DNA from: Allostella sp. ATCC 35155 | GTDB lineage: Bacteria > Pseudomonadota > Alphaproteobacteria > ATCC43930 > Allostellaceae | Direction: 5' to 3' | Assembly: GCA_006738865.1 (NCBI GenBank) | Contig: AP019701.1 | Coordinates: 859,001-923,000 of the forward strand | Length of the DNA: 64,000 nt | In this document: piece after piece, positions 47,417 through 63,199 of the stretch | Numbering within the stretch: position 1 is the stretch's first letter | Layout of the letters: every line of letters starts with the position of its first letter | Translations under genes and position numbers: made by a program | The notes under the pieces: generated by a model | The model's database searches: none | What the model was told of the DNA's origin: nothing | What the model saw: the letters and a program-made list of their open reading frames with translations, nothing else

Positions 47417-48151
47417 TCAGCCCGCCGGCGCCTCGCAGACCCAGACGCAGTCGCGCGGGACCGTTTCGTGGTCTTCGAGCAGGACGCGGTAGCCGAGATG
47501 GTCGAGGAAGCGGCGCATGATCGCCGGCGTCATGACCGAGAAGGCCTCGCCGTGGCGCTGGCCGCCGATCGAATGGTGCCAGTCGCCGAGGAACTTGGCG
47601 AAGCCGCGCTCGCTGAGGGTGTCGGCGTGATGCAGCACGCAGCGGCGCCGGCCGCGCAGCACGCGCGGCAGCAGGGTCAGGTAGTTGAAGATGTCGCGCG
47701 GCTCGACATGGACCAGCGTGTCGTAGCAGAAGCAGGCGTCTGCGGCCCCGTCGGCGATGCCGGCGAGGGAGGTGCCGTCGAGCTTCACGAAGCGGGTGCG
47801 CTCGGTCCGGCCGGGTGCGGCGGCGAGTCGCTGGCGCGTCAGCTCCAGCATCCCGGCCGAGACGTCGGCGCAGATCAACTCGCGGCAATGGTCGGCCAGG
47901 ATCGCCGCCGTGCGGCCGCCGCCCACCCCGATCTCCAGCACCGTCTCGGCCGGGTCGATCCAGGGCAGCACGAAGCGCTCGTGGATGAGGGCGACATAGG
48001 CGGCCAGCGTCTCGGCCGCGCCGGCCTCGCGGCCGATCCACTCGTCGCCGAGATGGCTCAGCCCCGGATGGGCGGTGCGCCAGCGCTGGGCGTAGCCGTC
48101 CCAGGCCGCCTCGTAGTCGACATACTTTTCGGATTTCTCAGGCTGCGTCAT
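47417..48151 (-). CDS. Class I SAM-dependent methyltransferase
   Basis: A 244-residue methyltransferase. SAM motif I is [19 protein letters not shown] (about residues 70-88), motif II contains [18 protein letters not shown], and the post-I region has [18 protein letters not shown]. The target is unknown. It resembles methyltransferases of surface polysaccharide loci, and its similarity of layout to the one at 53488-54237 plus its position suggest a role there. Start chosen at ATG 48151 ([14 protein letters not shown]); ATG 48178 is possible. Convergent with purH. Confidence 0.83.
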
Positions 48152-48307: not shown

Positions 48308-49072
48308 ATGAGCCGCCTGACCGAGGCGATCGACCGCATCGTCCGTGACCATTCGATCCGCCTCCTCAGCGTCGACGTGTTCGACACGCTGCTGCTGCGC
48401 GGCACCCGGCCGGAGATGGCGCGGTTCGCGCGGGTGGCCGGGATGCAGGCGCGGGCGCTGGCGGCCCGCGGCGTCGCGGTCGAGGCGGATGCGCTCTATG
48501 CCGCCCGGATGATCGCCGCGCGCACCGCCTATCGCGTCATCCGCACGGTCGAGGGCGAGCGCGAGGGGCATCTCGACCTCATCTTCGCGATGGTCGCCCG
48601 CGCCCTCGATCTCGACCCGGCGCTGGTGCCGGTCCTGGCCGAGGTCGAGTTCGCGTCCGAACTGGACGAACTGGCCGGCAATGTCCCGCTCGCGGACGCG
48701 CTGATGCGGCATCGCGCGGCGGGGTGCCGGGTCGTCTTCGCCAGCGACATGTACCTGCCCGAAGCGACGATCGCAGCCCTGATCGCCCGCAAGCTGCCAG
48801 CGCTCGAACTCGACGGCGGCTACAGCAGCGCCGACCATGGCGTGACCAAGCGCGGCGGCGGCCTGTTCCGCGTCCTGATGGCGGGCGAGGGGGTGGAGCC
48901 GGCCCAGGTGCTGCACATGGGCGACAGCGCGCTGGCCGATGTCGCGACGCCGCGTGCCATGGGCATCCACGTCCTGCACACGCCGCGGCCGCCGGGCTGG
49001 CAGCGCATCCACGGGCTGCGCCAGAAGCTCGCGATCCTGCACCACCGCGCGATGTTGCGGCGGGCGGCATGA
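48308..49072 (+). CDS. HAD-like protein of surface-polysaccharide type
   Basis: A 254-residue HAD-fold protein. Motif I is LLSVDVFDTLLLR: the nucleophile Asp is present, but the D+2 acid of phosphatases is Phe and an Asp appears at D+3. Motif II is VFASDMYLPEATI, motif III lysine in DHGVTKRGGGLFRV, and motif IV MGDSALADVATPRAMG. The D-x-F-D-T form is common in HAD-like proteins of capsule and O-antigen loci whose chemistry is not established. It overlaps the next gene by four bases (ATGA) and heads a five-gene coupled operon. Confidence 0.75.
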   Translation: MSRLTEAIDRIVRDHSIRLLSVDVFDTLLLRGTRPEMARFARVAGMQARALAARGVAVEADALYAARMIAARTAYRVIRTVEGEREGHLDLIFAMVARALDLDPALVPVLAEVEFASELDELAGNVPLADALMRHRAAGCRVVFASDMYLPEATIAALIARKLPALELDGGYSSADHGVTKRGGGLFRVLMAGEGVEPAQVLHMGDSALADVATPRAMGIHVLHTPRPPGWQRIHGLRQKLAILHHRAMLRRAA

Positions 49073-50466
49073 CGGTGGCGGCATTGGCCATGCCGGCGGC
49101 CGACGAAGATCTCGAGGCTTCGCTGGAGCGCCGCTTTCCGCCGCCCGAGGCCTATTCGCACCTCGCCGGCGACGACTGGCCGGGCGAGCCGCCGGTCGCC
49201 GCCGACCCCGCGGCGCAGCGCCGCTTCGGCGAGGAACTGCTGGGGCCGATCTTCCTGCAGTTCTGCCGCCGGCTGCATCTCGCCGGAGTCGGCTTCGAAG
49301 CGCGCGACGCACGGCTCCTGTTCGTGGCGCGCGGCGGGCTGCGGCTCGGGCTGCTCTACCGGCTCTGGTGCGAGCGCACCGGCACGGCGCCGGTGCTGCC
49401 GCTGGGCGACCTCGCCATCTCGCGCGTTGCGGCGGCCAAGGGCTGCCTCGTCCACGACTTCGCCGGCATCGCACCGACCCTGGTGCGCGAGTTCGGCGCC
49501 GGCTCGCTCGGCTACATGCTGCGCTGCCTCCTGCGCGGGCGCGGCATCGACCTGCCGGACGTGCTGGCCCACACGCCGGTCACCATCGGCTCCTTCGCCG
49601 CGATCTACGATGCCGAGGATGCGCTGGGCCAGGCCGTCCGCGCCTATTTCGCCGAGCAGGCGACGGCGCTCGCCCGGTATCTGGAAACGCTTCTCGACGG
49701 CGTTGCGACGCCGGTCCTGGTCGATTCCGGCTGGACCGGCGGCACCCAGGCGCTGCTGATGCGCCATTTCCCGCAATGGGACTGGCACGGGCTCTATTTC
49801 GGCCGCTGGGACTATGGCCGGGGGGCCGCGCCGCATTTCGGGCACATCTTCGGCGTCTCGGTCGACAGCCTGGAGCCGTTCGCCAACGCGCCCGGCCAGG
49901 CGCTCTTCGCCTACCACCACCTGATCGAGGATCCGCTCGAAATTGCGGCTCCCAGTGTCGAGGGCTACCGCCTGCTGCCCGACGGAAGCGGTGTGCCGGA
50001 GGGCGAGCCGATCGACCCGGCGGTGCTGCAGCCGGGTGCCGACGACGCCATGTTCCAGGGCATCCTCGACCATTTCCGCTCGCCCGCCGGGGCGGCCGAT
50101 TTCCTCACGGTCGAGCGCCGCGCGGACGCCGCCTACCGCCGCCTGCGCCGGATGATCCTGTGGCCGCGGCGGGCCGAGCTGCCGGGGATGCAGGTGCGGC
50201 CGCGCTCGGCCGATTTCGGGCGCAGCCTGACGGTGCCGGTGCTGCTGCGCCTGCCCGACGCCAGCCTGAAGCGCCGCCTGAAGTCGGTCGGCGCCGCCCT
50301 GTGGAAGCCGGGCCAGATGCTGGTCGCCTTTCCCGTCCTCGCCCCCGTCGTCAACGGCGGCGGCTACCTGCTGCGGCGCATTCCCTTCGCCGGCCGCCAT
50401 GTCGACCGGGTGTTGCGGCTGGGTTCGGGCTTCGCCCGGCGGGTGCTGCGGCGGCTCGTGCGATGA
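49069..50466 (+). CDS. Unrecognised 465-residue protein in polysaccharide export operon
   Basis: I do not recognise this family with certainty. Visible features: RLLFVARGGLRLGLLYRLW around residue 82 and TPVLVDSGWTGGTQALLMRH around residue 220, which together resemble the two halves of a phosphoribosyltransferase-like site. A WDYGRG segment follows, then a basic, arginine-rich C-terminal 100 residues. No signal peptide and no convincing membrane helix. It overlaps both neighbours by four bases (HAD-like before, Wzm after), so it is co-translated with the exporter. A role in making or modifying the exported glycan is inferred from context only. Confidence 0.6.
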   Translation: MTVAALAMPAADEDLEASLERRFPPPEAYSHLAGDDWPGEPPVAADPAAQRRFGEELLGPIFLQFCRRLHLAGVGFEARDARLLFVARGGLRLGLLYRLWCERTGTAPVLPLGDLAISRVAAAKGCLVHDFAGIAPTLVREFGAGSLGYMLRCLLRGRGIDLPDVLAHTPVTIGSFAAIYDAEDALGQAVRAYFAEQATALARYLETLLDGVATPVLVDSGWTGGTQALLMRHFPQWDWHGLYFGRWDYGRGAAPHFGHIFGVSVDSLEPFANAPGQALFAYHHLIEDPLEIAAPSVEGYRLLPDGSGVPEGEPIDPAVLQPGADDAMFQGILDHFRSPAGAADFLTVERRADAAYRRLRRMILWPRRAELPGMQVRPRSADFGRSLTVPVLLRLPDASLKRRLKSVGAALWKPGQMLVAFPVLAPVVNGGGYLLRRIPFAGRHVDRVLRLGSGFARRVLRRLVR

Positions 50467-51275
50467 GCGCCGCCGACGGCATGCTGGGGCCCGTCGGCAC
50501 GGCCCTGCGCTGGCGCCAGCTCATCCTCCAGCTCGCCCGGCGCGAGGTCGAGGGGCGCTATCGCGGCTCGTTGCTCGGGCTCGTCTGGGCGGTGGCGCAG
50601 CCGCTGCTCTATCTCGGGGTCTTCACCTTCGTCTTCGGCATCGTCTTCGAGGCGCGCTGGGGCGTGGCGACGGGGCCCAGGGCGCCGTTCGGGCTGATGC
50701 TGTTCGCCGGCCTCATCGCCTACTGGCTCTTCTCGGAGACGGTTGCGCGCGCGCCGGGCCTGGTGCTCTCCCATGCCAGCCTCGTCAAGCGGGTGCTGTT
50801 CCCGGTCGAGGTGCTGCCCATGGCGGCGGTGCTCGCCGGCTTCTTCCACACCGCGCTTGCGCTCGCGGTCTGGCTTGCGGGCCATCTCGTCTTCGTCGGC
50901 ATGCCGCCCTGGACGGCCCTGCTGGCGCCGGTCGCGCTCGCGCCGGTGGCGCTGATGGCGCTGGCGGTCGCCTATGTCGTCGCCGGGGTCGGGGTCTATG
51001 CCCGCGACATCGGCCAGATCGTGACCGTCGGGCTGACGGTGCTGATGTTCCTGTCGCCGATCTTCTATCCGCTGGACGCGGTGCCGGAGGCCTATCGCGG
51101 CCTCTTCTTCCTCAACCCGCTGACGGCGGCGGTGGAGGAGGTGCGAGGGGTGCTGCTGGATGGCGAGCTGCCCGGCCTGCCGACGCTGGTCGGCCTCCTA
51201 GCCGGGGCGGTCGCGGTGCGCGTCGCCTTCGCCCTGTTCCGGCGCCTGCGCCGCGGGTTCGCCGATGTCCTCTGA
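50463..51275 (+). CDS. wzm: ABC-2-type polysaccharide export permease (Wzm-like)
   Basis: A 270-residue permease with about six membrane segments. The amphipathic N-terminus LARREVEGRYRGSLLGLVWA is the classic Wzm/KpsM/TagG entry, FSETVARAPGLVLSHASLVKR and VLFPVEVLPMAAVLAGFFHT are conserved, and the C-terminal FLSPIFYPLDAVPEAYRGLF is typical. It would export a lipid-linked polysaccharide (O-antigen or capsule) across the inner membrane with the ATPase encoded next, whose start overlaps by 11 bases. Confidence 0.92.
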   Translation: MSAADGMLGPVGTALRWRQLILQLARREVEGRYRGSLLGLVWAVAQPLLYLGVFTFVFGIVFEARWGVATGPRAPFGLMLFAGLIAYWLFSETVARAPGLVLSHASLVKRVLFPVEVLPMAAVLAGFFHTALALAVWLAGHLVFVGMPPWTALLAPVALAPVALMALAVAYVVAGVGVYARDIGQIVTVGLTVLMFLSPIFYPLDAVPEAYRGLFFLNPLTAAVEEVRGVLLDGELPGLPTLVGLLAGAVAVRVAFALFRRLRRGFADVL

Positions 51276-52584
51276 AGCGCCGGCCCTGCTGGTCGAGGGC
51301 GTCGGCAAGGTCTATCGCCGCTATGCCTCGCCCTGGGACCGCGTGCGCCAGGCGCTGCGGCGCGAGGCCTCCCATGTCGACGAGCACTGGGCGCTGCGCG
51401 GCATCGATTTCCGCGTTGCGCGCGGCGAGACGGTCGGCCTCGTCGGCCGCAACGGCTCGGGCAAGTCGACGCTGCTGCAGATCATCGCCGGCACCATGAC
51501 GCCGACGGTCGGGCGGGTGCAGGCCGTCGGCCGCATCTCCGCGCTGCTGGAACTCGGCGCCGGCTTCCACCCGGACTTCACCGGCCGCGAGAACGCTCGG
51601 CTCAACGCCGCCATCCTCGGCCTCGACGACCGACAGATCGCCGAGGCCATGCCGTCGATCGCGGCGTTTGCCGACCTCGGCGACCATCTCGACCAGCCGC
51701 TGCGCACCTATTCGAGCGGCATGGGCGTGCGCCTCGCCTTTGCCGTCGCCGTGCATGTCGAGCCCGACATCCTGATCGTCGACGAGGCGCTGGCGGTGGG
51801 CGACGAGGCCTTCCAGCGCAAGTGCTTCGCCCGGCTGGAGCGGTTCCGCGCGGGCGGCGGCACCATTCTCTTCGTCTCCCACGCGGCTTCCCACGTCACC
51901 ACCTTGTGCGATCGCGCCATCCTGATCGACGACGGCGAGAAGCTGGCCGAGGGGCCGCCGCGCGCGGTCGTGGCGCAATACCACCGCCTGCTGTTCTCCC
52001 AGCCCGAGCGCCGCGCTCAGCTGCGCACCGCGATCCGCGAGGGCCTGCCGGAGATCGAGCCCGTCGCCGCCCCGGTCGACGACGCCTTCCACGACGCCGA
52101 CATGCGCCCGGCCGCGGCCGTCGTCTACGAGCCGGCCGGCGCCACCATCTCCGAACTGCGGGTGACGACGCCCGACGGGGCGCCGGTCAACGTCCTGCGC
52201 CGCGGCGGCGCCTACGAGATCCGCTGCCGCGTCACCTTCGCCGAGACCGCGTCCGGCGTCAGCTTCGGGACGCTGATCCGCACCGTCGCCGGCACCGAGC
52301 TGGCGGGCGGCTCGACCGCGGCCGCCGGCCGGGCGCTGGCCGAGGTCCATGCCGGCGAGGCCTGGCAGGTCCGCCACGCCTTCCGCTGCCGCCTGCTGCC
52401 CGGCACCTATTTCGTCAATGCCGGCGTCTCGGCCGAGACCGGGTCCGAACGCCGCTTCCTCCACCGCCTCGTGGATGCCGCGATGTTCAAGGTGATGCCC
52501 GATCCCGACCGCTGGCGCGCCGGGCTGGTCGATCTCGATTTCGAGTCCGAGGCGAACCCCGACCCGGCGGCGGACGGCCCATGA
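51265..52584 (+). CDS. wzt: ABC polysaccharide export ATPase with C-terminal extension (Wzt-like)
   Basis: A 439-residue ATPase. Residues 1-240 form the nucleotide-binding domain: Walker A GLVGRNGSGKSTLL (about 58-71), LELGAGFHPDFTGRENARLN, signature YSSGMGVRLAFAVAV, Walker B ILIVDEALAVGDEAFQRKC. From about 270 to 439 there is a beta-rich extension (ATISELRVTTPDGAPVNVL, YFVNAGVSAETGSE) in the position of the Wzt carbohydrate-binding domain. In E. coli O9a/O8 systems that domain recognises the capped end of the glycan, so a capped polysaccharide is expected here. Confidence 0.92.
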   Translation: MSSEAPALLVEGVGKVYRRYASPWDRVRQALRREASHVDEHWALRGIDFRVARGETVGLVGRNGSGKSTLLQIIAGTMTPTVGRVQAVGRISALLELGAGFHPDFTGRENARLNAAILGLDDRQIAEAMPSIAAFADLGDHLDQPLRTYSSGMGVRLAFAVAVHVEPDILIVDEALAVGDEAFQRKCFARLERFRAGGGTILFVSHAASHVTTLCDRAILIDDGEKLAEGPPRAVVAQYHRLLFSQPERRAQLRTAIREGLPEIEPVAAPVDDAFHDADMRPAAAVVYEPAGATISELRVTTPDGAPVNVLRRGGAYEIRCRVTFAETASGVSFGTLIRTVAGTELAGGSTAAAGRALAEVHAGEAWQVRHAFRCRLLPGTYFVNAGVSAETGSERRFLHRLVDAAMFKVMPDPDRWRAGLVDLDFESEANPDPAADGP

Positions 52585-53303
52585 CCGGCCGGCTGCCCGA
52601 CTTTCTCGGCATCGGCGCGCAGAAGGCGGGGACGACCTGGCTCTGCCGCATGCTGGAGGTGCATCCCGAGGTCGCCTTTCCGGCCGGCAAGGAGGTCCAT
52701 TTCTGGGACTGGCAGCGCGAGCGCGGCATCGACTGGTATCGCGGCCTCTTCGCGGGGGCGCCGGCCGAGCGCCGCGTCGGCGACTTCACGCCGGGCTACG
52801 GCGCATTGCCGCCGGAAGCCATCGCGGAGGTGCACCGGACGATGCCGGACGTGCCGCTGCTCTTCATCGCGCGCAACCCGATCGAGCGGGCCTGGTCGGC
52901 GGCGCTGATGCTGGTGCGCTGGGGACTGATGTACCCCCGCGAGCTCTCGGACGCCTGGTTCCTCGACGTCTTCCGCTCCGGCCAGTCGCAGGTGCGGGGC
53001 GACTATGCCGGCTGCCTCGAGCGCTGGACGGCGGAGTTTGCGCGCCAGCAGGTGGTGGTGCTGCTCTATGACGACGTCCTGGCCGATCCGCGCGGCGTCC
53101 TGGAGCAGACCTGCCGGCACATCGGGGTCGATGCGTCCGTCGTCCGCGACTGGCCGGAGGAGCAGATCGCCGAGCGCGTCCATGCCGGGGACGGCGAGCC
53201 CTTGCGCGAATCGCTGCGCCAGCCGCTGCGCGACCTTTACGGGCCGCGCGTGGCCGCCTTCTCCCGCCTCGTCGGGCGGGACCTGTCGCACTGGCTCGGG
53301 TAG
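52581..53303 (+). CDS. Sulfotransferase (PAPS-dependent)
   Basis: A 240-residue sulfotransferase of the heparan sulfate/NodH-like fold. The 5'-phosphosulfate loop is GIGAQKAGTTWLCRMLEVHP at the N-terminus and the 3'-phosphate site is LLFIARNPIERAWSAALMLV (about residues 92-111). It would transfer sulfate from PAPS to a carbohydrate hydroxyl. Start ATG 52581 overlaps the wzt stop, so it is the last gene of the coupled HAD/unknown/wzm/wzt operon; sulfation of the exported glycan is the natural inference. A perfect inverted repeat follows. Confidence 0.88.
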   Translation: MTGRLPDFLGIGAQKAGTTWLCRMLEVHPEVAFPAGKEVHFWDWQRERGIDWYRGLFAGAPAERRVGDFTPGYGALPPEAIAEVHRTMPDVPLLFIARNPIERAWSAALMLVRWGLMYPRELSDAWFLDVFRSGQSQVRGDYAGCLERWTAEFARQQVVVLLYDDVLADPRGVLEQTCRHIGVDASVVRDWPEEQIAERVHAGDGEPLRESLRQPLRDLYGPRVAAFSRLVGRDLSHWLG

Positions 53304-53360: not shown

Positions 53361-53442
53361 CGTCCCTCGACTTCGCTCGGGATGAGGTAGGCCTTTGTTA
53401 AAATTAATTAATTCCGGTCATCCCGAGCGAAGTCGAGGGACG
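53361..53442. repeat. Perfect 25-bp inverted repeat between convergent genes
   Basis: A 25-base arm at 53361-53385 (starting CGTCCCTCGACTTCGCTCGG) has an exact inverted copy at 53418-53442, with a 32-base AT-rich loop containing TTAATTAATT. Outside the arms, AGCGGCCGTG and CAACGGCCGCG extend the pairing with a one-base offset. It separates the plus-strand sulfotransferase from the minus-strand methyltransferase and could end transcription from both sides. The arm resembles a dispersed palindromic repeat I recall as common in alphaproteobacterial genomes. Confidence 0.85.
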
Positions 53443-53487: not shown

Positions 53488-54237
53488 TCAGCCAGCCTGG
53501 GGCGGTCGCCGTGTCGCCACGAACCAGCAGTCGCGGCCGGCCAGCTTGGGCAGGAAGCGGACGTCGAATCCCAGCCGGTTGAGGACGTGCGCCACCATCG
53601 GCGGGCACAGCCACTCGAACTTGGAGGTGATCTTGCCCTGGGTGGCAAAGTAGGTCGGCACGTCCGCCATCAGCTTCTCGAAGCCGTGCGGCGAGGTCGC
53701 GTCGGCGACGCTCATGATCATCTTGCCGCCCGGCCGCAGCGCGTCGGCGGCCGCCATCCAGTAGGCGACGAGGTACTGCAGGTCGACATGGACCATGGCG
53801 TCGATCGAGAAGACGAGGTCGACGGAGCCCCGCCAGCCGCGCTCGGCGACGAGGCGCGCCAGATGGTCCCATTCCGGCAGGAGCTGCGCCGTCGCCAGCC
53901 GCCCGGCGGCCATCGCGGGCGCCATCCGTTCCTCCAGCACCGCGAGGTAGGCGGGGGAGACGTCCACCGCCAGAATCTCAGCAGTGGGGCAATGGTCCAG
54001 CACCATGCCCGTGTACTTGCCGGCGCCGGGGCCGATCTCGATCGCGCGGGCGGGTGGCGGCTCGAGTTCGGGCGCGAAGACCATCTGGTAGATGCGTTCC
54101 CAGATCTCGGGCGTGCCCCACTCGTCGCCGGGCCAGGCGAGGCGCTCGCCGGCCGGGTCGTGGGCGCGGATCTGCGGGAAGATCGAGCGGACGTAGAGAT
54201 CCCAGTACTGGCCGTAATCGTCGGCGCGCTCGGTCAT
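53488..54237 (-). CDS. SAM-dependent methyltransferase in polysaccharide locus
   Basis: A 249-residue class I methyltransferase. Motif I is AIEIGPGAGKYTGMVLDHCP (about residues 65-84), motif II ILAVDVSPAYLAVLEERM, and SIDAMVHVDLQYLVAYWMAA matches the same region of the methyltransferase at 47417-48151. The N-terminal DDYGQYWDLYVRSIFPQ recalls methyltransferases acting on surface sugars. It overlaps the upstream sulfotransferase/coiled-coil gene by four bases. A chain-capping role is inferred from the neighbours. Confidence 0.82.
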   Translation of the reverse strand: MTERADDYGQYWDLYVRSIFPQIRAHDPAGERLAWPGDEWGTPEIWERIYQMVFAPELEPPPARAIEIGPGAGKYTGMVLDHCPTAEILAVDVSPAYLAVLEERMAPAMAAGRLATAQLLPEWDHLARLVAERGWRGSVDLVFSIDAMVHVDLQYLVAYWMAAADALRPGGKMIMSVADATSPHGFEKLMADVPTYFATQGKITSKFEWLCPPMVAHVLNRLGFDVRFLPKLAGRDCWFVATRRPPQAG

Positions 54238-55673
54238 GGCCGCCCCCTGCGCAACAGCCGGGCGGCGGCGCGCAGCGGCCCGGTCAGATTCCAGAAGAAG
54301 CCCTGCTGCAGGGCAACGGCGAGCCGCGCCTGATCCTCGGGCGTCGGCGTCGGCGGCCGTTCGACGGCCGCCCGCCCGCCGACCAAGCGCTGCAGCGGAC
54401 GGGCGACGCGCAGCGAGGTCGAGTTCCAGATATCGTCGAGGGCGCGGGCGGGGTCCGGCATGACCTGGTCGAGGATGCGCTGGCGGGCCGCCAGCTCGTT
54501 GAGGAGGCCCGTCCGCTGCGCCTCCATCGCATCGCGCTCGGCGACGAGCGCCCCGATGCGGCGGTGGAGGGCCGCCATCTCGGCCTCGGCGGCCAGCCGC
54601 CGGCCGTCCAGGACCGCATAGAGTTCCTGCAGCTGCGCATGGTCGCGCGCGAAGGCCTCGGCGCGGGTCCGCTGCTGGGCGATGTCCGCCTTGGCCTGGG
54701 CGCGGAAGGTCTGGAACTGGCCGCGCATCTCCTCGAAATCGCGGCCGAGCCGCTGCATGGCGGCCTCCCGCTCGGGATGCCGGGCGACATACTCGCCCCA
54801 TCCGGCGAGCAGGCAGCGGGCCTGGTCGAGGCGGGCGATCAGCGGGCGGACGGCATCGGCCGGCGGCGCATCGGGGGCGCCGGCGCGCAGGAGGCCGTAG
54901 AGTTCGCGCACTTCCGGCAGCAGGCTGGCGGGCTGCTGGCCGCGACCGTGGCGGAGATCGGCGCGCACGATGCGGCCGACGGCGGCGTCCAGTGCGGCAT
55001 CGTCGGCCGGCCAGGCGAGGCCGAGGCGGTCGATCGTCGCGCGCGCAGTGGCCAGCGGACGCGCGAACCAGTCGTCATAGTCGACGACGGCGGCGATGCG
55101 GTCGCCGACGTAGCGGAAGGCGTCCAGCGTGTGGTCGAGCCAGAGGAGCTGGGCGGCCGCCATGCTCATCCGGTCGCGCTTGGCGAGCGACTGCGCGACC
55201 GCCTCGGGGTTGCGGATGGCCAGCAGCCAGACGGGCTCGATGCCGAGCTGGGGGCCGAGATCGGCGAAGATGTCGAGCCACAGCGGCAGCAGCCGCACGG
55301 TCCGCGGATCCTTGAAACCCCACGGCCCGACGGTCTCCGACGTCTCGCGCCGGACGATGTCGGCCAGCCGGCGGCGGTGGGGCCGCATCTCCGGCAGGCG
55401 CCACCAGCCGGCGGGCAGGGGAACCTGGCCCTCCGGCAGGTACCAGGTGCGGCCGAGCTGGGAGAGGATCGCCTCCTGGGCCTCGGCGATCTCCTTGTGC
55501 TCCCAGTAGCCGGCCTCATTGTCCGGGGTCTGGTCGAGCAGCAGGTCGGGGCCGAGTTCGACTCCCACCGCCTGGAGCAGGGACGCCAGCAGCGAGGTGC
55601 CGCTGCGGTGCATGCCGAGGACGACGACGACCGGTCGGCGGCCTCCGTCCGGTCCGGTCGGGCGGGCGGTCAT
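54234..55673 (-). CDS. Sulfotransferase-like protein with C-terminal coiled coil
   Basis: A 479-residue protein. The N-terminal 290 residues form a sulfotransferase-like P-loop domain: PVVVVLGMHRSGTSLLASLL at residues 14-33, GFKDPRTVRLLPLWLD at 119-134, and a 3'-phosphate-type site LLAIRNPEAVAQSL at 150-163. Residues 300-403 are a continuous charged heptad-rich helix, probably a coiled coil. The tail WNSTSLRVARPLQRLV (416-431) is a motif often seen near the C-terminus of surface-polysaccharide enzymes. It overlaps the methyltransferase downstream and the GT2 gene upstream by four bases each. Confidence 0.8.
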   Translation of the reverse strand: MTARPTGPDGGRRPVVVVLGMHRSGTSLLASLLQAVGVELGPDLLLDQTPDNEAGYWEHKEIAEAQEAILSQLGRTWYLPEGQVPLPAGWWRLPEMRPHRRRLADIVRRETSETVGPWGFKDPRTVRLLPLWLDIFADLGPQLGIEPVWLLAIRNPEAVAQSLAKRDRMSMAAAQLLWLDHTLDAFRYVGDRIAAVVDYDDWFARPLATARATIDRLGLAWPADDAALDAAVGRIVRADLRHGRGQQPASLLPEVRELYGLLRAGAPDAPPADAVRPLIARLDQARCLLAGWGEYVARHPEREAAMQRLGRDFEEMRGQFQTFRAQAKADIAQQRTRAEAFARDHAQLQELYAVLDGRRLAAEAEMAALHRRIGALVAERDAMEAQRTGLLNELAARQRILDQVMPDPARALDDIWNSTSLRVARPLQRLVGGRAAVERPPTPTPEDQARLAVALQQGFFWNLTGPLRAAARLLRRGRP

Positions 55674-56614
55674 CGGCGGGTCAGCCGGCGCCAGGTGCGG
55701 GCGACCCAGCGCAGGGGCGCCAGCACCGCCTCGAGCACGCGGAAGCTGAAGCGCGCGGCATCGAAGAGGGCGTTCAGCTTCAGCTCGAGCAGCGACAGGT
55801 GCTGGCCGACATTGACGAGCGTGCCGAGCCCGACCTTGCCGGCGTCGAGGTCGCGGCGCATCAGCTCGTTGCGGATCAGCGCGTCGTAGAGAGCATGCTT
55901 GTCCTGGGCGCCGAAGATCGAATTGGCGTAGGCGGGGTCGGTCGAGCTCGGCCGGTGATGGTAGAGCGCAAGCGGCCGCGGCAGCACGCCGATGTCGCTG
56001 CGGGCGAGGAAGCGCAGGTTGAAGTCCCAGTCGCCGAGGACGGGCAGATCCTCGCGGTAATAGCCGACCGTATCGAGCATCGACCGCCGGAACAGGAAGG
56101 AGATGGGCGGGAACATGTTGCCGCCGGCCATCCGGAACAGCGTGATGCTGCGCACCCACTCGTTATAGGGGCTGCGCCGCTCGATCTCGACCGTGTCGCC
56201 GACGATCCGCTCGTCGATCCGCACGCTGTGGGTGACGACCCCGGCAATCGTCGTGCCGTCATGGGCGTCGAGATAGGCCGTGGTGGCCTGCAGGAACTCC
56301 GGCTCCCAGCTGTCGTCGTCGTCGTGGATGACGACGTAGCGGCTGTCGGCCGCCCGCAGGCCGACATTGGACGCCGCCTCCATGCCGAGCGAGCGCGGGT
56401 TGTGGACGACCTTCAGACGGCCGGCATAGCGATCGGCGAAGAAAGCTGCCAGCCGGTCGACCGGGGCGGGATCGCCGCCGTCATTGACCACGACGTGGAC
56501 CCAGTCGCCGGAAGTCTGGGCCAGCACGCTCTCCATCGCGCGGCGAAGCAGGACGGCGCGGTCCTTGGTGCGGGTGACGACCGCGACGGCAGGCGCGACG
56601 GCGGGCTGGGACAA
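55670..56614 (-). CDS. Family 2 glycosyltransferase
   Basis: A GT-A fold glycosyltransferase of about 314 residues. PAVAVVTRTKDRAVLLRRAM at the N-terminus is followed by VVVNDGGDPAPVDRL, RSLGMEAASNVGLRAADS, and the metal-binding aspartates in YVVIHDDDDSWEPEFLQ. GDWDFNLRFLARSDIGVLPR is the acceptor-side segment. No ATG is available. TTG 56614 with AGAGG six bases upstream is my choice; TTG 56677 would add 21 residues. First gene of a coupled three-gene minus-strand operon. Confidence 0.86.
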   Translation of the reverse strand: MSQPAVAPAVAVVTRTKDRAVLLRRAMESVLAQTSGDWVHVVVNDGGDPAPVDRLAAFFADRYAGRLKVVHNPRSLGMEAASNVGLRAADSRYVVIHDDDDSWEPEFLQATTAYLDAHDGTTIAGVVTHSVRIDERIVGDTVEIERRSPYNEWVRSITLFRMAGGNMFPPISFLFRRSMLDTVGYYREDLPVLGDWDFNLRFLARSDIGVLPRPLALYHHRPSSTDPAYANSIFGAQDKHALYDALIRNELMRRDLDAGKVGLGTLVNVGQHLSLLELKLNALFDAARFSFRVLEAVLAPLRWVARTWRRLTRR

Positions 56615-56994: not shown

Positions 56995-58860
56995 ATGGCG
57001 GTTATTAGTTGGAATGGGGCGAGCAATCTCGACCTGAAGAGCCTGGGTCAGACGTTCGATTTCCGCACGGACGTGCTGCAGATTTCCGATCCGTCGCTCC
57101 AGGCGAACCAGTTCGACCTGGTCGAGAGCGGCACGGACCTGGCGATCGTCAAGTCGCGCGACGCGACGGGCGCGCCGCTGCCGGCGGCGGACGTCACCTA
57201 TGCCTACATCCCGAACATGCTCGTGCGCCAGGTCGGCGGCACGGATGCGTCGCCGGTTTCCTCGAACATCGTGCTGTCGAACGGCGGCCAGCTGTGGGTC
57301 GGCGACCGTCTGACGGACACGCTGCTGGACGACGCCGGCAACGACGCGACGGCGCTGTCGACGCAGCTGCAGTCGGTGCAGGTGTGGGGCCTGGGCGGCG
57401 CGGACACCATCACCACCGGTGACGGCAACGACCGCGTCTACGGCAACACGGGTGCGGACAACGTCTCGGGCGGCGCCGGCAACGACTCGCTCTATGGCGG
57501 CCAGGAGAACGACACGGTTTCCGGCGGCGGCGGCAACGACAATGTCGCGGGCGATCTCGGCAACGACCAGGTCAATGGCGGGTCGGGCAACGACATCCTC
57601 TATGGCGGTGCCGGCAACGACATCCTCGATCCCGACACCGGCAACGACACGATCTTCGCCGGCAACGGCAACGACACGGTCACGATCGGCAACAGCGACA
57701 CCGGCGACAAGCTTATCTACATGGATAAGCTGCAGGACGAGGTGAACATCATCTCGACTACGGGCGATCACACGGTCTACCTGGGCGAGAACAACGACGA
57801 GGCCTATCTCGAGGCGAACTCGGGCGACATCCAGGTCTTCGGCGAGTCGGGCAACGACTACATCGAGGCCCAGAACTCCGGCTCCGACACGCTCGACGGC
57901 GGCAACGACGACGACTACGTCGCCATCCTGAACGGCTCGGTCGGCCAGAAGGTTCTGATCGGCGGCTTCGGCGACGACGAGATCAGTGTCGGCGACAGCT
58001 CCGGCTTCGCCAGCTCGCAGATCCTGCCGAACACGCAGGTGACGACGTCGGGCGGCGAGGGCGACGACTACATCTACTACAATCGTGGCCTGTTCATCAC
58101 CGACGCCAACGACGGTGGTTCGGACAACGACTCGATCTACTTCGACCAGCAGACGATCCTGGTGCTGCGCGACAAGTCGATCGAGAACATCGAGACGGCC
58201 TCGTTCAGCTCCGACAGCGACTATGTCGTCTTCGCCGACGGCAACAACGTCAAGGTCGTCAACGGCAATGGCGGCGAGGACTATCTCGATGCCAGCCGCG
58301 AGACCTCCTCGGCCTACACGCTGAACGGCAACGAGGGTGACGACACGCTGATCGGCGGCGCCGGTGCGGACAAGATCCGCGGCGGCAACGGCGAAGACCT
58401 GCTCACCGGCAATGGCGGTGCCGATACCTTCCAGTTCATCGAACCCTGGAACGGCTCGGCCTATTCCGACGTGATCCAGGACTTCACCGGCAACGTCGAC
58501 ACGCTGGCCTTCAACGGCAACGCGTTCTCGGACGTGTCGGCGATCGACGGCTACAAGGGCACGGCCGGCGACAGCGCTTCGGCCAACGACAACCTGCTCA
58601 TCGCGACGGGCGACAGCTACTCGATCGCCTCGTTCGACACCTTCCTCTCGGTGGGTGCGGCCGATACCGACAAGCCCGGCTTCTACATCTTCTTCAATGC
58701 CAGCACGAACCGCGGCGAGATCTGGTTCGACACCTCGATGGTGTCGACCGACGGCGCGGTGCTGATCGCCACCTTCAACAACATCACGGCGATCAACCAG
58801 CTCTCGCAGTTCGACGAGGGCCCGAACGGCGGCAACTCGGGCGACTTCGTGATCATCTGA
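56995..58860 (+). CDS. RTX (haemolysin-type calcium-binding) surface protein, copy 1
   Basis: A 621-residue acidic, lysine-poor protein with no signal peptide. After an N-terminal beta-rich segment (MAVISWNGASNLDLKSLGQ; about residues 1-132), residues 133-230 hold about ten GGxGxDxL-type nonapeptides (GGAGNDSLYGGQENDTV, GGSGNDILYGGAGNDIL). A second block is at about 426-480 (GDDTLIGGAGADKIRGG). The C-terminal region ends in GNSGDFVII, aliphatic residues after an acidic one as in type I secretion signals. Calcium-folded extracellular or S-layer protein is the likely role; no catalytic domain seen. A strong terminator follows. Confidence 0.88.
   Translation: MAVISWNGASNLDLKSLGQTFDFRTDVLQISDPSLQANQFDLVESGTDLAIVKSRDATGAPLPAADVTYAYIPNMLVRQVGGTDASPVSSNIVLSNGGQLWVGDRLTDTLLDDAGNDATALSTQLQSVQVWGLGGADTITTGDGNDRVYGNTGADNVSGGAGNDSLYGGQENDTVSGGGGNDNVAGDLGNDQVNGGSGNDILYGGAGNDILDPDTGNDTIFAGNGNDTVTIGNSDTGDKLIYMDKLQDEVNIISTTGDHTVYLGENNDEAYLEANSGDIQVFGESGNDYIEAQNSGSDTLDGGNDDDYVAILNGSVGQKVLIGGFGDDEISVGDSSGFASSQILPNTQVTTSGGEGDDYIYYNRGLFITDANDGGSDNDSIYFDQQTILVLRDKSIENIETASFSSDSDYVVFADGNNVKVVNGNGGEDYLDASRETSSAYTLNGNEGDDTLIGGAGADKIRGGNGEDLLTGNGGADTFQFIEPWNGSAYSDVIQDFTGNVDTLAFNGNAFSDVSAIDGYKGTAGDSASANDNLLIATGDSYSIASFDTFLSVGAADTDKPGFYIFFNASTNRGEIWFDTSMVSTDGAVLIATFNNITAINQLSQFDEGPNGGNSGDFVII
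57100..57720 (+). repeat. Near-identical DNA shared by the three RTX genes
   Basis: This segment recurs at about 61194-61814 (copy 2) and, with one replaced block, at about 63305-63925 (copy 3). Long runs are identical, with mostly third-position changes. It covers the N-terminal domain and the first nonapeptide block, consistent with recent duplication and/or gene conversion. Confidence 0.85.
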
Positions 58861-58887
58861 TCCGAAGCTCGATCGGGACGACTGGCT

Positions 58888-58922
58888 GGGCCGGGGGAGA
58901 AATCCCCCGGCCCTTCCTTTTT
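58888..58922 (+). terminator. Rho-independent terminator after RTX1
   Basis: A perfect 11-bp stem, GGGCCGGGGGA (58888-58898) with TCCCCCGGCCC (58903-58913), has a GAAA loop and is followed by TTCCTTTTTG. This is the strongest terminator in the window and isolates RTX1 from the glycosyltransferase genes. Confidence 0.9.
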
Positions 58923-59013
58923 GTCGCGGCCGGGGGATGTGGCGCCGTCCGCCGCCATGGACTAGAGAGGGGTGCAGCGCAACCCCGCATCCGGGCGCAA
59001 TCCGAGGATCCTC

Positions 59014-59721
59014 ATGACGGACGCATTTCCCGTGATGGTCGGCTGGGACAGCCGGGAAGACATCGCCTATCAGGTCTGCCGCCATTCGCTGCTGAAGCGC
59101 GCCACCGTGCCGGTGACGGTCGCGCCGATCCGCCAGCCCGATCTGCGCGCCGCCGGCGTCTATACGCGCGCCGCCGATCCGCTGGCCTCCACCGAATTCA
59201 CCTACACCCGCTTCCTCGTGCCGCACCTGCGGGGCTTCCAGGGCTGGGCGCTCTTCGTCGATTGCGACTTCCTCTGGCTCGACGACATCGCCCATCTCAC
59301 CGGGTTGTGCGATCCACGCTACGCGGTCATGTGCGTGCATCATGACTATGCGCCGACCGAGAGCTGGAAGATGGACGGGGTTCCGCAGACCCGCTATCCG
59401 CGCAAGAACTGGTCGAGCCTGATGCTGTGGAACTGCGGCCATCCGGCCAACCGGGTGCTGACGCCGGAACTGGTCAGCCGCGAATCCGGCGCCTTCCTGC
59501 ACCGCTTCCAGTGGCTGGGGGACGAGCTGATCGGCAGCGTGCCCGAGCGCTGGAACTGGCTCGAAGGATGGAGCACCCCGCCGACCGCGGGGCTGCCGGG
59601 CGCGGTCCACTACACGCGTGGCGGGCCGTGGTTCGCCGAATGGCAGACCGTCGTCTATGGCGACCGCTGGCTGGCGGAGGAAGCCGACTACCGGCAGCAC
59701 CCGATTCCCGCGGCGGCGTGA
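59014..59721 (+). CDS. Glycosyltransferase-like protein (DxD-containing, GT8-like)
   Basis: A 235-residue protein resembling GT-A glycosyltransferases: FPVMVGWDSREDIAYQVCRH at the start and a DxD-type motif in WALFVDCDFLWLDDIAHLTG (about residues 80-99). MDGVPQTRYPRKNWSSLMLW then SGAFLHRFQWLGDELIGSVP form the acceptor region, and GAVHYTRGGPWF is near the end with a probable metal-binding histidine. Donor and acceptor unknown. ATG 59014 follows GAGGA. The stop overlaps the next gene's GTG. Confidence 0.75.
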   Translation: MTDAFPVMVGWDSREDIAYQVCRHSLLKRATVPVTVAPIRQPDLRAAGVYTRAADPLASTEFTYTRFLVPHLRGFQGWALFVDCDFLWLDDIAHLTGLCDPRYAVMCVHHDYAPTESWKMDGVPQTRYPRKNWSSLMLWNCGHPANRVLTPELVSRESGAFLHRFQWLGDELIGSVPERWNWLEGWSTPPTAGLPGAVHYTRGGPWFAEWQTVVYGDRWLAEEADYRQHPIPAAA

Positions 59722-61004
59722 GCGGCACGACGCCGCAGGCGGTCGCGGCGGCGGCGGAACAGCGGCTGGCCGCGGGCGACCGCGCCGGCGCGACGGCGCT
59801 GCTGCGCGCCGGCCAGATGCGCTGCCCACACCCGGTCCTGGCGACGAACCTCGCGCGGCTGATGTGGCGCGCGGGCGAGGCCGGCGAGGCGGCGGCGCTG
59901 CTGGACTGGGCGATCGAGCGGGCGCCCGATTCCCCGGCCGGGTGGGTCAACCGGGCCGATCTGCGGGCGGCGCTCGACCATCCGCTGGCCGAGTGCGACT
60001 ATCGCCGCGCGCTGGCACTGGTTCCCGACCCGGCCGAGATCCACTGGTCGATCGCCGTGCATCTCCTGACACAGGGGCAGTGGCGCCGGGCATGGCCGCA
60101 TTATGCCTGGCGGGCGCACCATCCGAGGGTTCGCAACCGGCCGGCTCCGTTCCCGCGGCTGACCGACCTCCGCGCGCCCGGCGGCCGGATCCTGGTGTGG
60201 AGCCATGAGGGGATCGGCGAGGATTTGCGCCACGCGGCGCTGCTGCCGGCCTTGCTCGCGGCCGGGTTCGGGATCGTCCTCGAAGTCGACGGGCGCCTGG
60301 TCCCGCTCTTCGCCCGTTCCTTCCCGGCGGTAGAGGTGGTCGCGCGCGCCTGGCCGCCGCATCCGGCGACGGCCGACCGCGCGATCACGGCGCAAGTCGC
60401 ACTCGGCGACCTGCCCGCCTGGTTCGGGCTCGAGCCGGGGCGCCTGCCGGGCGGCGGCCCCTGGCTGCGGGCCGATCCCATGCGCTCGGCCGAACTGCGT
60501 CGGCGCTACCGCGCGTTGGGCCCCGGCCCGCTCGTCGGCATCGCCTGGGAAAGCCGGGGGACGCCGCTGGCCGACGCCAAGTCGATCCCGCCCGGGATGC
60601 TGGCCCCGCTGCTCGAACGGGAGGGGTTCGTCTTCGTCGATCTCCAGTATGGCGCCCACGGCACGGTTTCGGGTCGGCTCCATCGCGATCCGGCGATCGA
60701 TGCGCTCGCCGACCTCGACGGCTTCGCGGCCCAGGTCGCAGCACTCGATCTCGTGGTCTCCTCGAGCAACAGCACGGTCCACATGGCCGGAGCCCTGGGC
60801 GTGCCGGCATGGGCGATGATCCATCGCGGCCCGCCGGTCACGCCCTACTGGATCGCCGGCGCCGCGATCTCGCCCTGGTACCCGGCGACACGCATCCTGC
60901 GCCAGGATCGCCCGGGCGACTGGAGCGGCCCGGTCGAGACGGTGGGCCGTAGCCTGATGCAATGGAATAGCGCTCCCTCCGCATCCGGTCCGACCCAAGA
61001 ATAG
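59718..61004 (+). CDS. TPR-glycosyltransferase fusion protein (GT9/OGT-like)
   Basis: A 428-residue protein. Residues 1-125 are alanine-rich helical pairs resembling tetratricopeptide repeats (AAAEQRLAAGDRAGATALLR; AGEAGEAAALLDWAIERAPD; HWSIAVHLLTQGQWRRAWP). The rest resembles GT-B enzymes fused to TPRs: RILVWSHEGIGEDLRHAALL, PLVGIAWESRGTPLADAKSI, and the donor-site segment LDLVVSSSNSTVHMAGALGV then PAWAMIHRG. Such fusions commonly glycosylate proteins or surface glycans. GTG start overlapping the previous stop, so the two transferases are coupled. They sit between RTX1 and RTX2. Confidence 0.78.
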   Translation: MSGTTPQAVAAAAEQRLAAGDRAGATALLRAGQMRCPHPVLATNLARLMWRAGEAGEAAALLDWAIERAPDSPAGWVNRADLRAALDHPLAECDYRRALALVPDPAEIHWSIAVHLLTQGQWRRAWPHYAWRAHHPRVRNRPAPFPRLTDLRAPGGRILVWSHEGIGEDLRHAALLPALLAAGFGIVLEVDGRLVPLFARSFPAVEVVARAWPPHPATADRAITAQVALGDLPAWFGLEPGRLPGGGPWLRADPMRSAELRRRYRALGPGPLVGIAWESRGTPLADAKSIPPGMLAPLLEREGFVFVDLQYGAHGTVSGRLHRDPAIDALADLDGFAAQVAALDLVVSSSNSTVHMAGALGVPAWAMIHRGPPVTPYWIAGAAISPWYPATRILRQDRPGDWSGPVETVGRSLMQWNSAPSASGPTQE

Positions 61005-61088
61005 TTGCGATTCGGCGCTGCAATTGATACTCGGTAAGTATGGCGGGTCTATCTTGGCGCCGGTTCAATGATTTAGGGGGCGTTTCTT

Positions 61089-62957
61089 ATGGCGGTCATC
61101 AGCTGGAATGGGGCGAGCAACCTCGACCTGAAGAGCCTGGGTCAGACGTTCGATTTCCGCACGGACGTGCTGCAGATCTCCGATCCGTCGCTCCAGGCGA
61201 ACCAGTTCGACCTGGTCGAGAGCGGCACGGACCTGGCGATCGTCAAGTCGCGCGACGCGACGGGCGCACCGCTGCCGGCGGCGGACGTCACCTACGCCTA
61301 CATCCCGAACATGCTCGTGCGCCAGGTCGGCGGCACGGACGCGTCGCCGGTTTCCTCGAACATCGTGCTGTCGAACGGCGGCCAGCTGTGGGTCGGCGAC
61401 CGTCTGACGGACACGCTGCTGGACGACGCCGGCAACGACGCGACGGCGCTGTCGACGCAGCTGCAGTCGGTGCAGGTGTGGGGCCTGGGCGGCGCGGACA
61501 CGATCACCACCGGTGACGGCAACGACCGCGTCTACGGCAACACCGGGGCGGACAACGTCTCGGGCGGCGCCGGCAACGACTCGCTCTATGGCGGCCAGGA
61601 GAACGACACGGTCTCCGGCGGCGGCGGCAACGACAATGTCGCGGGCGATCTCGGCAACGACATGGTCAATGGCGGGTCGGGCAACGACATCCTCTATGGC
61701 GGTGCCGGCAACGACATCCTCGATCCCGACACCGGCAACGACACGCTGTTCGCCGGCAACGGCAACGACACGGTCGCGATCGGCGACAGCGACACCGGCG
61801 ACAAGCTTGTCTACATGGACAAGATGCAGGACCTGGTGCAGATCGTCTCGACGACCGGCGACCACGCCGTCTATCTCGGCGACAACAACGACGAGGCCTA
61901 TCTCATCGCCAATTCGGGTGATGTCCAGGTCTTCGGCGAAGACGGCAACGACGAGATCGTGGCCCAGAACTCCGGCTCCGACACGCTCGACGGCGGCAAC
62001 GACGACGACTATGTCGTCGTGCTCGACGGCTCGGTCGGCCGCAAGGTGCTGATCGGCGGCTTCGGCGACGACGAGATCGAGATCGTCGACAGCTCGGGCA
62101 ACGGGTCGGCCCAGATCCTGCCGAACACGCAGGTGGAAGCGTCGGGTGGCGAGGGCGACGACGTCATCCGCTACTATCGCGGCCTGTTCATCACCGACGC
62201 CAACGACGGCGGTGCCGACGGCGACCGGCTGGTCATCGAGGGCTCGACCATCCTGACCTTGCGCGACAAGTCGATCGAGAACATCGAGACGGTCGAGTTC
62301 AGCGACGAGAACGATTCGGTCGTCTTCGCCGACGGCAACAACGTCAAGGACGCCGACGGCAATGACGGCGACGATCTGCTCGATGCCAGCCGCGAGACGT
62401 CGTCCGGCTACATCCTCTACGGCCATGAGGGCAACGACACGCTGATCGGCGGCGCCGGTGCGGACAGCATCCGCGGCGGCGACGGCGAGGACCTGCTGAC
62501 GGGCGGCGCCGGCGCCGACACCTTCCACGCGATCGAGCGCCCGAACGACGACGGCCATTATTCCGACGTCATCCAGGACTTCACGGGCACCGTCGACACG
62601 CTGGCCTTCAACGGCAACGCGTTCGCCGACGTGTCGGCGATCGACGGCTACAAGGGCACGGCCGGCGACAGCGCGACGGCCAACGACAACCTGCTGATCG
62701 CGACGGGCGACAGCTACTCGATCGCCTCGTTCGACACCTTCCTCTCGATCGGTACCGCCGATACCGACAAGCCCGGTTTCTACATCTTCTTCAATGCCAG
62801 CACGAACCGCGGCGAGATCTGGTTCGACACCTCCATGATCTCGACCGAAGGGGCGCGGCTGATCGCCACCTTCAACAACATCACGGCGATCAACCAGCTG
62901 TCCCAGTTCGACGAGGGCCCCAACGGAGGGAACTCGGGAGACTTCGTCATCATCTGA
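61089..62957 (+). CDS. RTX (haemolysin-type calcium-binding) surface protein, copy 2
   Basis: A 622-residue paralogue of RTX1 with the same architecture: N-terminal beta-rich segment, nonapeptides at about residues 133-230 and 427-485, and the identical C-terminus GNSGDFVII. Most changes are in the middle (about residues 235-470), for example VQIVSTTGDHAVYLGDNND and DDEIEIVDSSGNGSAQ. The first 230 and last 110 residues are almost unchanged. The ribosome-binding region is TTTAGGGGGCG, weaker than that of RTX1. It follows the TPR-glycosyltransferase by 84 bases and ends in its own terminator. Confidence 0.88.
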   Translation: MAVISWNGASNLDLKSLGQTFDFRTDVLQISDPSLQANQFDLVESGTDLAIVKSRDATGAPLPAADVTYAYIPNMLVRQVGGTDASPVSSNIVLSNGGQLWVGDRLTDTLLDDAGNDATALSTQLQSVQVWGLGGADTITTGDGNDRVYGNTGADNVSGGAGNDSLYGGQENDTVSGGGGNDNVAGDLGNDMVNGGSGNDILYGGAGNDILDPDTGNDTLFAGNGNDTVAIGDSDTGDKLVYMDKMQDLVQIVSTTGDHAVYLGDNNDEAYLIANSGDVQVFGEDGNDEIVAQNSGSDTLDGGNDDDYVVVLDGSVGRKVLIGGFGDDEIEIVDSSGNGSAQILPNTQVEASGGEGDDVIRYYRGLFITDANDGGADGDRLVIEGSTILTLRDKSIENIETVEFSDENDSVVFADGNNVKDADGNDGDDLLDASRETSSGYILYGHEGNDTLIGGAGADSIRGGDGEDLLTGGAGADTFHAIERPNDDGHYSDVIQDFTGTVDTLAFNGNAFADVSAIDGYKGTAGDSATANDNLLIATGDSYSIASFDTFLSIGTADTDKPGFYIFFNASTNRGEIWFDTSMISTEGARLIATFNNITAINQLSQFDEGPNGGNSGDFVII

Positions 62958-62980
62958 GCGACGACGTCGCCGCAATGCGG

Positions 62981-63014
62981 AACGGCCGGGGCTTGCCCCG
63001 GCCGTTCTTCGTTT
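62981..63014 (+). terminator. Terminator after RTX2
   Basis: A perfect 12-base inverted repeat AACGGCCGGGGC (62981-62992) / GCCCCGGCCGTT (62995-63006) is followed by CTTCGTTT. The two-base centre means the top pair or two must open to form the loop. Confidence 0.78.
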
Positions 63015-63199
63015 CCGCCTCCGGAATCCCGGAGACGCCCCAGCCGAGGCACAACCGCGAGCCCGCGAGCTCGAACGGATCTTCTGCGCGATTTCGTCCT
63101 CCATATCTTCCAATCAAGGTTGCCGTCGGCGGCGGCTGCTGATAATCGACATCAACGATCGGTTGCGATCGGGGATGGAGATCAGTCAGGGCGTTGTTT

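Follow-up and report, generated by a model that had tools for sequence, protein, structure and literature searches.

The window that we analysed, a stretch of 64,000 nucleotides, comes from Stella, a genus of star-shaped bacteria (PMC6687932). Three of its minus-strand genes lie in series and encode a GT2 glycosyltransferase, a sulfotransferase-like protein with a long helix, and a methyltransferase (Table 1). The stop of the GT2 gene, at 55670, overlaps the start of the sulfotransferase gene by 4 nt, and the sulfotransferase and methyltransferase genes likewise share 4 nt (ATGA). A sequence-only reading of this DNA had described overlapping methyltransferase and sulfotransferase-like genes, and these were found exactly where it had placed them, on the minus strand. 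Facing this trio are plus-strand genes for a HAD phosphatase, a protein with a PRPP-like loop, the exporter components Wzm and Wzt, and a second sulfotransferase, so that the trio and the wzm-wzt operon are convergent and do not form one operon. The same reading had mentioned a Wzt with a C-terminal extension about 1 kb away; indeed, the extension matched Wzt_C (PF14524, E 2e-26), and the end of wzt lies 0.9 kb from the methyltransferase gene. Between the convergent operons we observed a perfect 22-bp inverted repeat (53364-53439, with arms at 53364-53385 and 53418-53439), which has no second copy in the window and is possibly a terminator or a repeat element.

Table 1. Coordinates of the genes and protein segments discussed in the text, as positions in the window.
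Feature	Position	Strand	Basis or remark
Second methyltransferase	47417..48151	-	Pfam and comparison; distant paralogue, 29% identical to the methyltransferase of the trio
HAD phosphatase	48308..49072	+	Matches Bcs3 and 7shg; resembles the phosphatase part of ribofuranosyltransferases
Candidate phosphoribosyltransferase	49069..50466	+	PRPP-loop-like VLVDSGWTGGTQ; putative assignment
Wzm, ABC-2 permease	50463..51275	+	Pfam ABC2_membrane
Wzt (ABC ATPase); Wzt_C reader domain at residues 291-424	51265..52584	+	ABC_tran and PF14524
Second sulfotransferase, 240 aa, coil-free	52581..53303	+	Pfam; directly after wzt
Class I SAM methyltransferase, 249 aa	53488..54237	-	Pfam and homolog search; genus-specific partner
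Sulfotransferase-coil protein, 479 aa	54234..55673	-	PAPS sulfotransferase domain ~10-266, helix 300-404, helical tail 408-475
Tail, residues 405-479	54237..54461	-	Contains NSTSLRVARPL and FFWNLTGPLRAAARLLRR; conserved among Stella
Uninterrupted helix, residues 300-404	54462..54776	-	AlphaFold, heptad test, no gaps in four Stella species
GT2 glycosyltransferase, first gene of the trio	55670..56614	-	Pfam Glycos_transf_2; start codon uncertain

All nine window proteins (9/9) had orthologues in both complete Stella relatives by tblastn. The block was cut by contig ends in a fourth Stella genome, where the orthologues of the GT2 and of the second methyltransferase were not on the contig; as far as the contigs reach, it is kept in 4/4 Stella genomes. 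One scan of genome contigs returned two loci, both of them Stella-like. In S. vacuolata, a gene pair is tandemly duplicated beside the sulfotransferase cluster (L018:109-5192). On the other side of the trio, starting 0.4 kb beyond it, the window holds three RTX-repeat genes (56995-63976) whose N-terminal parts are nearly the same. The third of these runs off its listed frame near the window end, a short unassigned gene and a TPR gene sit between two of them, and another Stella genome also carries the array (L017).

The only Pfam family found before the coil of the 479-residue protein was Sulfotransfer_3, at E 1.6e-5 and 25.8 bits, just below the cut-off of 27; the score rose above it, to 30.3, when the pieces in the frame were summed, and two Stella orthologues (G001 and G003) passed the cut-off themselves. 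A fold search, with Foldseek run as well, assigned residues ~10-266 of the AlphaFold model to the PAPS sulfotransferase fold, the best match being human TPST1 (5wrj; Z 15.2, rmsd 3.9 over 208 aligned residues), and 4gox matched with Z 15.1. The near-invariant PAPS motifs GMHxSGTS, KDPR and R...S are intact, and G20, M21, H22, S24, G25, T26, S27, R154 and S162 were conserved in at least 90% of 30 sequences. We take these residues to represent the 5'-PSB loop and the 3'-PB. Motifs and modelled fold together place the protein among the predicted PAPS-dependent sulfotransferases. The second sulfotransferase matched both Sulfotransfer_3 and Sulfotransfer_1 and has no coil. In plasmid records, 22 in number, only the sulfotransferase domain was matched, over at most half of the query.

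Behind this domain, the sequence-only reading had noticed about 100 residues of heptad-like helix, and it had proposed coiled-coil prediction and AlphaFold modelling of residues 300-403 as a check. Both bore the observation out. AlphaFold, supplied with the 30-sequence alignment, built a single uninterrupted helix over residues 300-404 (block pLDDT ~82-98), followed by lower-confidence helices up to residue 475 (tail pLDDT 56-76). Across the four Stella species, ILVMFY residues occupied 59/120 cells at the a and d positions versus 26/296 elsewhere, none of 5000 column shuffles did as well, and the periodogram peaked at 3.50. The heptad register is mostly shared by the orthologues over residues ~317-385, with a phase change before. 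A COILS-type scan marked residues 324-405 of the window protein as coil, and 0/300 segment shuffles yielded as many residues. A Kyte-Doolittle periodogram of the coil gave no signal at 3.5 (1693/2000 shuffles were as high), probably because the helix is rich in alanine.

The length of this helix proved to be constant within Stella. Among the Stella orthologues (four sequences, the fourth partial at its N terminus), the sulfotransferase domains were pairwise 66-82% identical, the tails (399-479) 69-88% and the coils (301-398) 40-54%. The coil alignment had no gap columns (0/98), so that its length is the same in all four species in spite of the divergence in sequence; in the sulfotransferase domain, by comparison, the window protein differs from two other orthologues by an indel of four residues. 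Conservation of length under sequence drift is stated as a general principle for coiled coils in the accessible part of PMC5082667, and in this alignment it would be the pattern expected of a spacer. The tail, which was the best conserved of the parts compared, is basic and amphipathic, and we propose that it is a docking or membrane helix. Relatives carry an STxWRxTxPL-like motif after the coil, similar to the Stella tail. We rejected SWRxTxPLR as a widespread Stella tail, since the matches to its DNA pattern in three Stella genomes (4, 4 and 1, versus 0, 1 and 2 for the control) were about at chance level. Coil length among relatives ranges from ~30 to several hundred residues, a spread that neither proves nor excludes a ruler.

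The sulfotransferase tended to occur together with Wzt_C. A match was present in at least 21 of 385 genomes of the class, with no more than four candidates scored per genome, and in 14 of 43 genomes of the order, the four Stella genomes included. The same set of 385 included 41 genomes with Wzt_C. Among the matches listed, 17 of the 21 sulfotransferase genomes had Wzt_C and four did not, compared with 24 of the 364 others (Fisher 4e-15); leaving Stella out, 16 of 20 had it (3e-14), again among the matches listed. These genomes are related, so that the counts do not equal independent events; outside Stella, the sulfotransferase occurs in at least 15 families, 11 of them with Wzt_C. Sixteen non-Stella genomes had both; in six of these, sulfotransferase and Wzt_C lay within 10 kb on one contig, where 0.12 would be expected. 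The remaining pairs were 20-22 kb apart (two genomes), far apart (two) or on different contigs (six), and the genes were not close in G252, G341, G258, G418 and several draft genomes. At the other extreme, the two matches lay within ~100 bp of each other in G093, G137 and G400. As a control, we counted by hand the other Sulfotransfer_3 matches in the 20 non-Stella sulfotransferase genomes, leaving out six rows that represented the enzyme under study. Of the 82 rows, four were within 10 kb of Wzt_C, and these four included at least two relatives of the second sulfotransferase.

A Wzt tree of 44 rows, which excluded G341 as not fetched, G140 for its split frame and G316 for want of a matching frame, contained one clade of 19 rows from 18 genomes (support 100/99), all with the sulfotransferase. 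None of the 23 rows from genomes lacking the sulfotransferase fell inside it, where lacking refers to a search with the window protein that could miss a distant sulfotransferase. Two rows from sulfotransferase genomes fell outside, the second Wzt of G148 and that of G245. Genomes in which the two genes are unlinked are also represented in the clade (G148, G252, G258, G418, G176, G276, G357 and G105).

We compared the architecture of the relatives. In the order, beyond Stella, the sulfotransferase is mostly the front part of a long protein in which it is followed by a coil and glycosyltransferase modules. Of 20 loci fetched from 19 sulfotransferase genomes of the class, nine had a neighbouring gene resembling wzm or wzt (L069-L074, L082, L083 and L085; weak ABC matches in L076 and L077 were not counted). 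A relative of the second sulfotransferase was present in four of the 20 loci, all four among the nine with an exporter gene. In G137, wzt is directly followed by a gene for a sulfotransferase-coil-GT2 protein. Three genomes (G098, G219 and G390), which make up three of the six rows of the Wzt clade neighbouring the sulfotransferase-linked one, encode a protein of 1151-1223 aa in the stretch around wzt that starts with Methyltransf_24 and continues with coil, GT2 and GT2. The sulfotransferase-coil-GT2-GT2 proteins of G174, G266, G258 and G418 were 37-49% identical to these over 570-1005 aa. This identity ran from the coil onward, and no N-terminal match was reported between the two types compared. 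The sulfotransferase fusion is a neighbour of wzt in G174 and G266 but not in G418 and G258; the proteins of G223 and G137 are more distant in sequence. The Stella GT2 matched the GT2 modules of the fusions distantly. Judged from these alignments, the common coil-GT2-GT2 body with differing N-terminal enzymes is a swap of a putative cap module. Since a sulfotransferase stands in place of a methyltransferase, we read it as the likely terminator and sulfate as its mark; that it would act on the non-reducing end and stop growth is suggested by this swap. Separately, G334 encodes a different sulfotransferase with ~300 residues of coil in a gene that abuts wzt (L145:7298-9403), possibly an independent sulfotransferase terminator, and a 1780-aa protein at L034:5660-11002 combines a sulfotransferase with a repetitive coil of ~500 residues and with TPR, GT4-like and GT2 domains.

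Sulfotransferase-coil-GT fusions of ~1300 aa were also found at six loci in two genera of the order (L036-L041). The neighbours tested at L036-L040 were flagellin, FlgK, FliD or FlgL-like genes in 5/5 loci, with the fusion placed between FlgL-like or FlgK genes and flagellin or FliD genes, a setting in which an exporter would not be expected. These fusions are candidate enzymes for the glycosylation and sulfation of flagellin. The sulfotransferase-coil module is not exclusive to exporter clusters. We counted this as evidence against exclusivity only, not as a refutation of the terminator reading. It does lend something to the idea that the Stella enzyme decorates internal residues or repeat units, with the coil a mere scaffold in a synthase complex and a different export mark: fusions outside exporter clusters present the coil as a tether of general use, the flagellar-cluster proteins have a short one (~35-60 residues), and the Stella cluster has two sulfotransferase genes. 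Such decoration would leave unexplained why one Wzt clade pairs exclusively with this sulfotransferase and why the N-terminal methyltransferase was replaced on the same polymerase body, and we regard it as unlikely. The flagellar relatives, the convergent orientation of trio and exporter operon, and the nearby start of the RTX-repeat genes would also fit the idea that the trio glycosylates and sulfates a surface protein, for instance the adjacent RTX-repeat proteins or flagellin, and has nothing to do with wzm-wzt. The three genomes in which sulfotransferase and Wzt_C matches almost touch, and a Wzt clade that tracks the sulfotransferase, speak against this explanation, which we hold to be very improbable.

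The methyltransferase of the trio matched Pfam Methyltransf_12/25 (7.7e-9 and 4.8e-8) and had no coil in the COILS-type scan. Among the matches listed in the 385 genomes, with up to seven candidates scored per genome, it had no relative outside Stella at 1e-12 (own genome only, 1/385). Its fold is generic class I; the fold search returned a saturated list of class I enzymes, and the absence of WbdD from the best 50 matches is therefore neutral for or against WbdD likeness. Conceivably, this enzyme could be the terminator, recruited by the coil protein, with sulfation secondary. Methyl caps are known, as in E. coli O8 (accessible part of PMC11231755), the overlapping genes are kept in 4/4 Stella, and in G024 sulfotransferase, Methyltransf_24 and coil share one polypeptide. 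Set against this are the confinement of the methyltransferase to Stella among those matches, its lack of a coil and generic fold, and the association of the sulfotransferase with the Wzt clade in its absence. A methyltransferase terminator thus appears improbable to us. The sequence-only reading had suggested sulfate and/or methyl as the cap: the sulfotransferase half is favoured by the co-occurrence with Wzt_C, the Wzt clade and the module swap, while a general partnership of the methyltransferase found no support among the matches listed. Comparisons outside the genus point to the sulfotransferase, not the methyltransferase, as the putative cap enzyme, and the methyltransferase is, by the same comparisons, a Stella-specific addition.

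As for the polymer itself, the genes for the HAD phosphatase and for the protein with the PRPP-like loop overlap by 4 nt. The phosphatase matched Bcs3 (1.9e-7) and 7shg, 'Ribofuranosyl transferase' (9e-7). Its partner had no match in Pfam or the database search; its loop VLVDSGWTGGTQ, which we presume to be PRPP-binding-like, is invariant in four Stella. The two genes probably encode a split ribofuranosyltransferase, which suggests ribofuranose in the Stella polymer, and the polymerase would probably consist of the GT2 and this pair.

We therefore favour, at a probability of roughly 0.55, that the sulfotransferase-coil protein is a WbdD/WbbB-like terminator of the polysaccharide exported by Wzm/Wzt, with sulfate replacing methyl or Kdo. 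The N-terminal domain would transfer sulfate from PAPS to the non-reducing chain end, whereupon growth would stop. The coil of ~105 residues, ~16 nm if fully helical, would keep the active site away from the membrane polymerase, so that a chain would be capped only once it had grown far enough to reach that site; this control of chain length is suggested by analogy and by the conserved length in four species. The conserved tail may dock to the membrane and/or the polymerase, that is, the adjacent GT2 and the probable ribofuranosyltransferase pair. Wzt_C would read the sulfated end, and the overlapping methyltransferase might add a further, Stella-specific modification. Alternatively, the cap might be added by the second, coil-free sulfotransferase encoded next to wzt. 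In evolutionary terms, we see about even odds that sulfate is an export-licensing cap, that a PAPS sulfotransferase replaced a methyltransferase, that a dedicated Wzt clade evolved to read sulfate-ended chains, and that in Stella the machine was split and a methyltransferase added, so that chain ends there might carry sulfate and methyl together.

If this is true, a sulfate cap would be new chemistry for the termination and export licensing of ABC-exported glycans, the cap enzyme would prove to be a module that can be exchanged on a conserved body of coil and polymerase, and the specificity with which an entire Wzt clade reads chain ends would become directly testable. It would also account for sulfotransferase genes beside wzt where the repeat unit is free of sulfate. 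Aeromonas salmonicida is such a case: the available text of PMC4483657 describes a sulfotransferase-domain gene, wbsalmo ORF19, between wzt and wbbB and reports no sulfate in the O-antigen repeat unit, an absence that would be accounted for by a mark placed solely at the terminus. At 216 aa, ORF19 is nearer in size to the coil-free second sulfotransferase of Stella, and the likeness drawn here is one of domain annotation and gene position. A literature search, with much subscription literature outside its scope, found no sulfotransferase or sulfate terminator associated with Wzt.

Terminators that carry a coil have a published layout in ABC-exported glycan systems, with methyl, methylphosphate or Kdo as caps. 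According to the accessible part of PMC11231755, the class is marked by a coil after the catalytic domain, a C-terminal membrane-associated amphipathic helix or polymerase recruitment site, and a Wzt with a C-terminal carbohydrate-binding domain. The Stella protein shows, by prediction, an extended coil after its catalytic domain and is accompanied by a Wzt with such a domain. Its arrangement of enzyme, coil and Wzt_C, with a conserved tail as the candidate docking helix, matches this published terminator-ruler marker. This layout and the comparative evidence above support the terminator interpretation in part. One of the closest known parallels in layout is WbdD of E. coli O9a/O8, which the portions available of PMC3482155 and PMC11231755 describe as having an N-terminal cap enzyme, a long coil and a C-terminal membrane/polymerase-binding region, as separate from the polymerase, and as served by a cognate Wzt with a C-terminal domain; all of this resembles Stella, with the tail as the candidate binding region. 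In Stella, however, a sulfotransferase replaces the methyltransferase(-kinase), and the methyltransferase is a separate protein. Direct homology to WbdD was rejected, as Pfam found no kinase domain and the N-terminal fold is that of a PAPS sulfotransferase; of the WbdD parallel in the sequence-only reading, the architecture stands, with the activities on separate polypeptides.

Other terminators differ in how the parts are joined. In ORF6 of K. pneumoniae O7 and WbbB of O12, terminator, coil and polymerase form one chain, as they do in G174, G266 and G137 beside wzt; the cap enzyme of the former is a methyltransferase-kinase or a Kdo transferase, whereas that of the relatives described here is a sulfotransferase. 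ORF7 of K. pneumoniae O4 has terminator and coil on a polypeptide of their own, as in Stella, and both systems include a ribofuranosyltransferase, in Stella the candidate pair. The O4 system uses a Kdo transferase (GT137) and a separate ribofuranosyltransferase, while the ribofuranosyl parts of Stella are divided over two genes. The ribofuranosyltransferases of K. pneumoniae O4 and O7 combine phosphatase and PRPP-transferase activities, and it is these that the Stella pair resembles.
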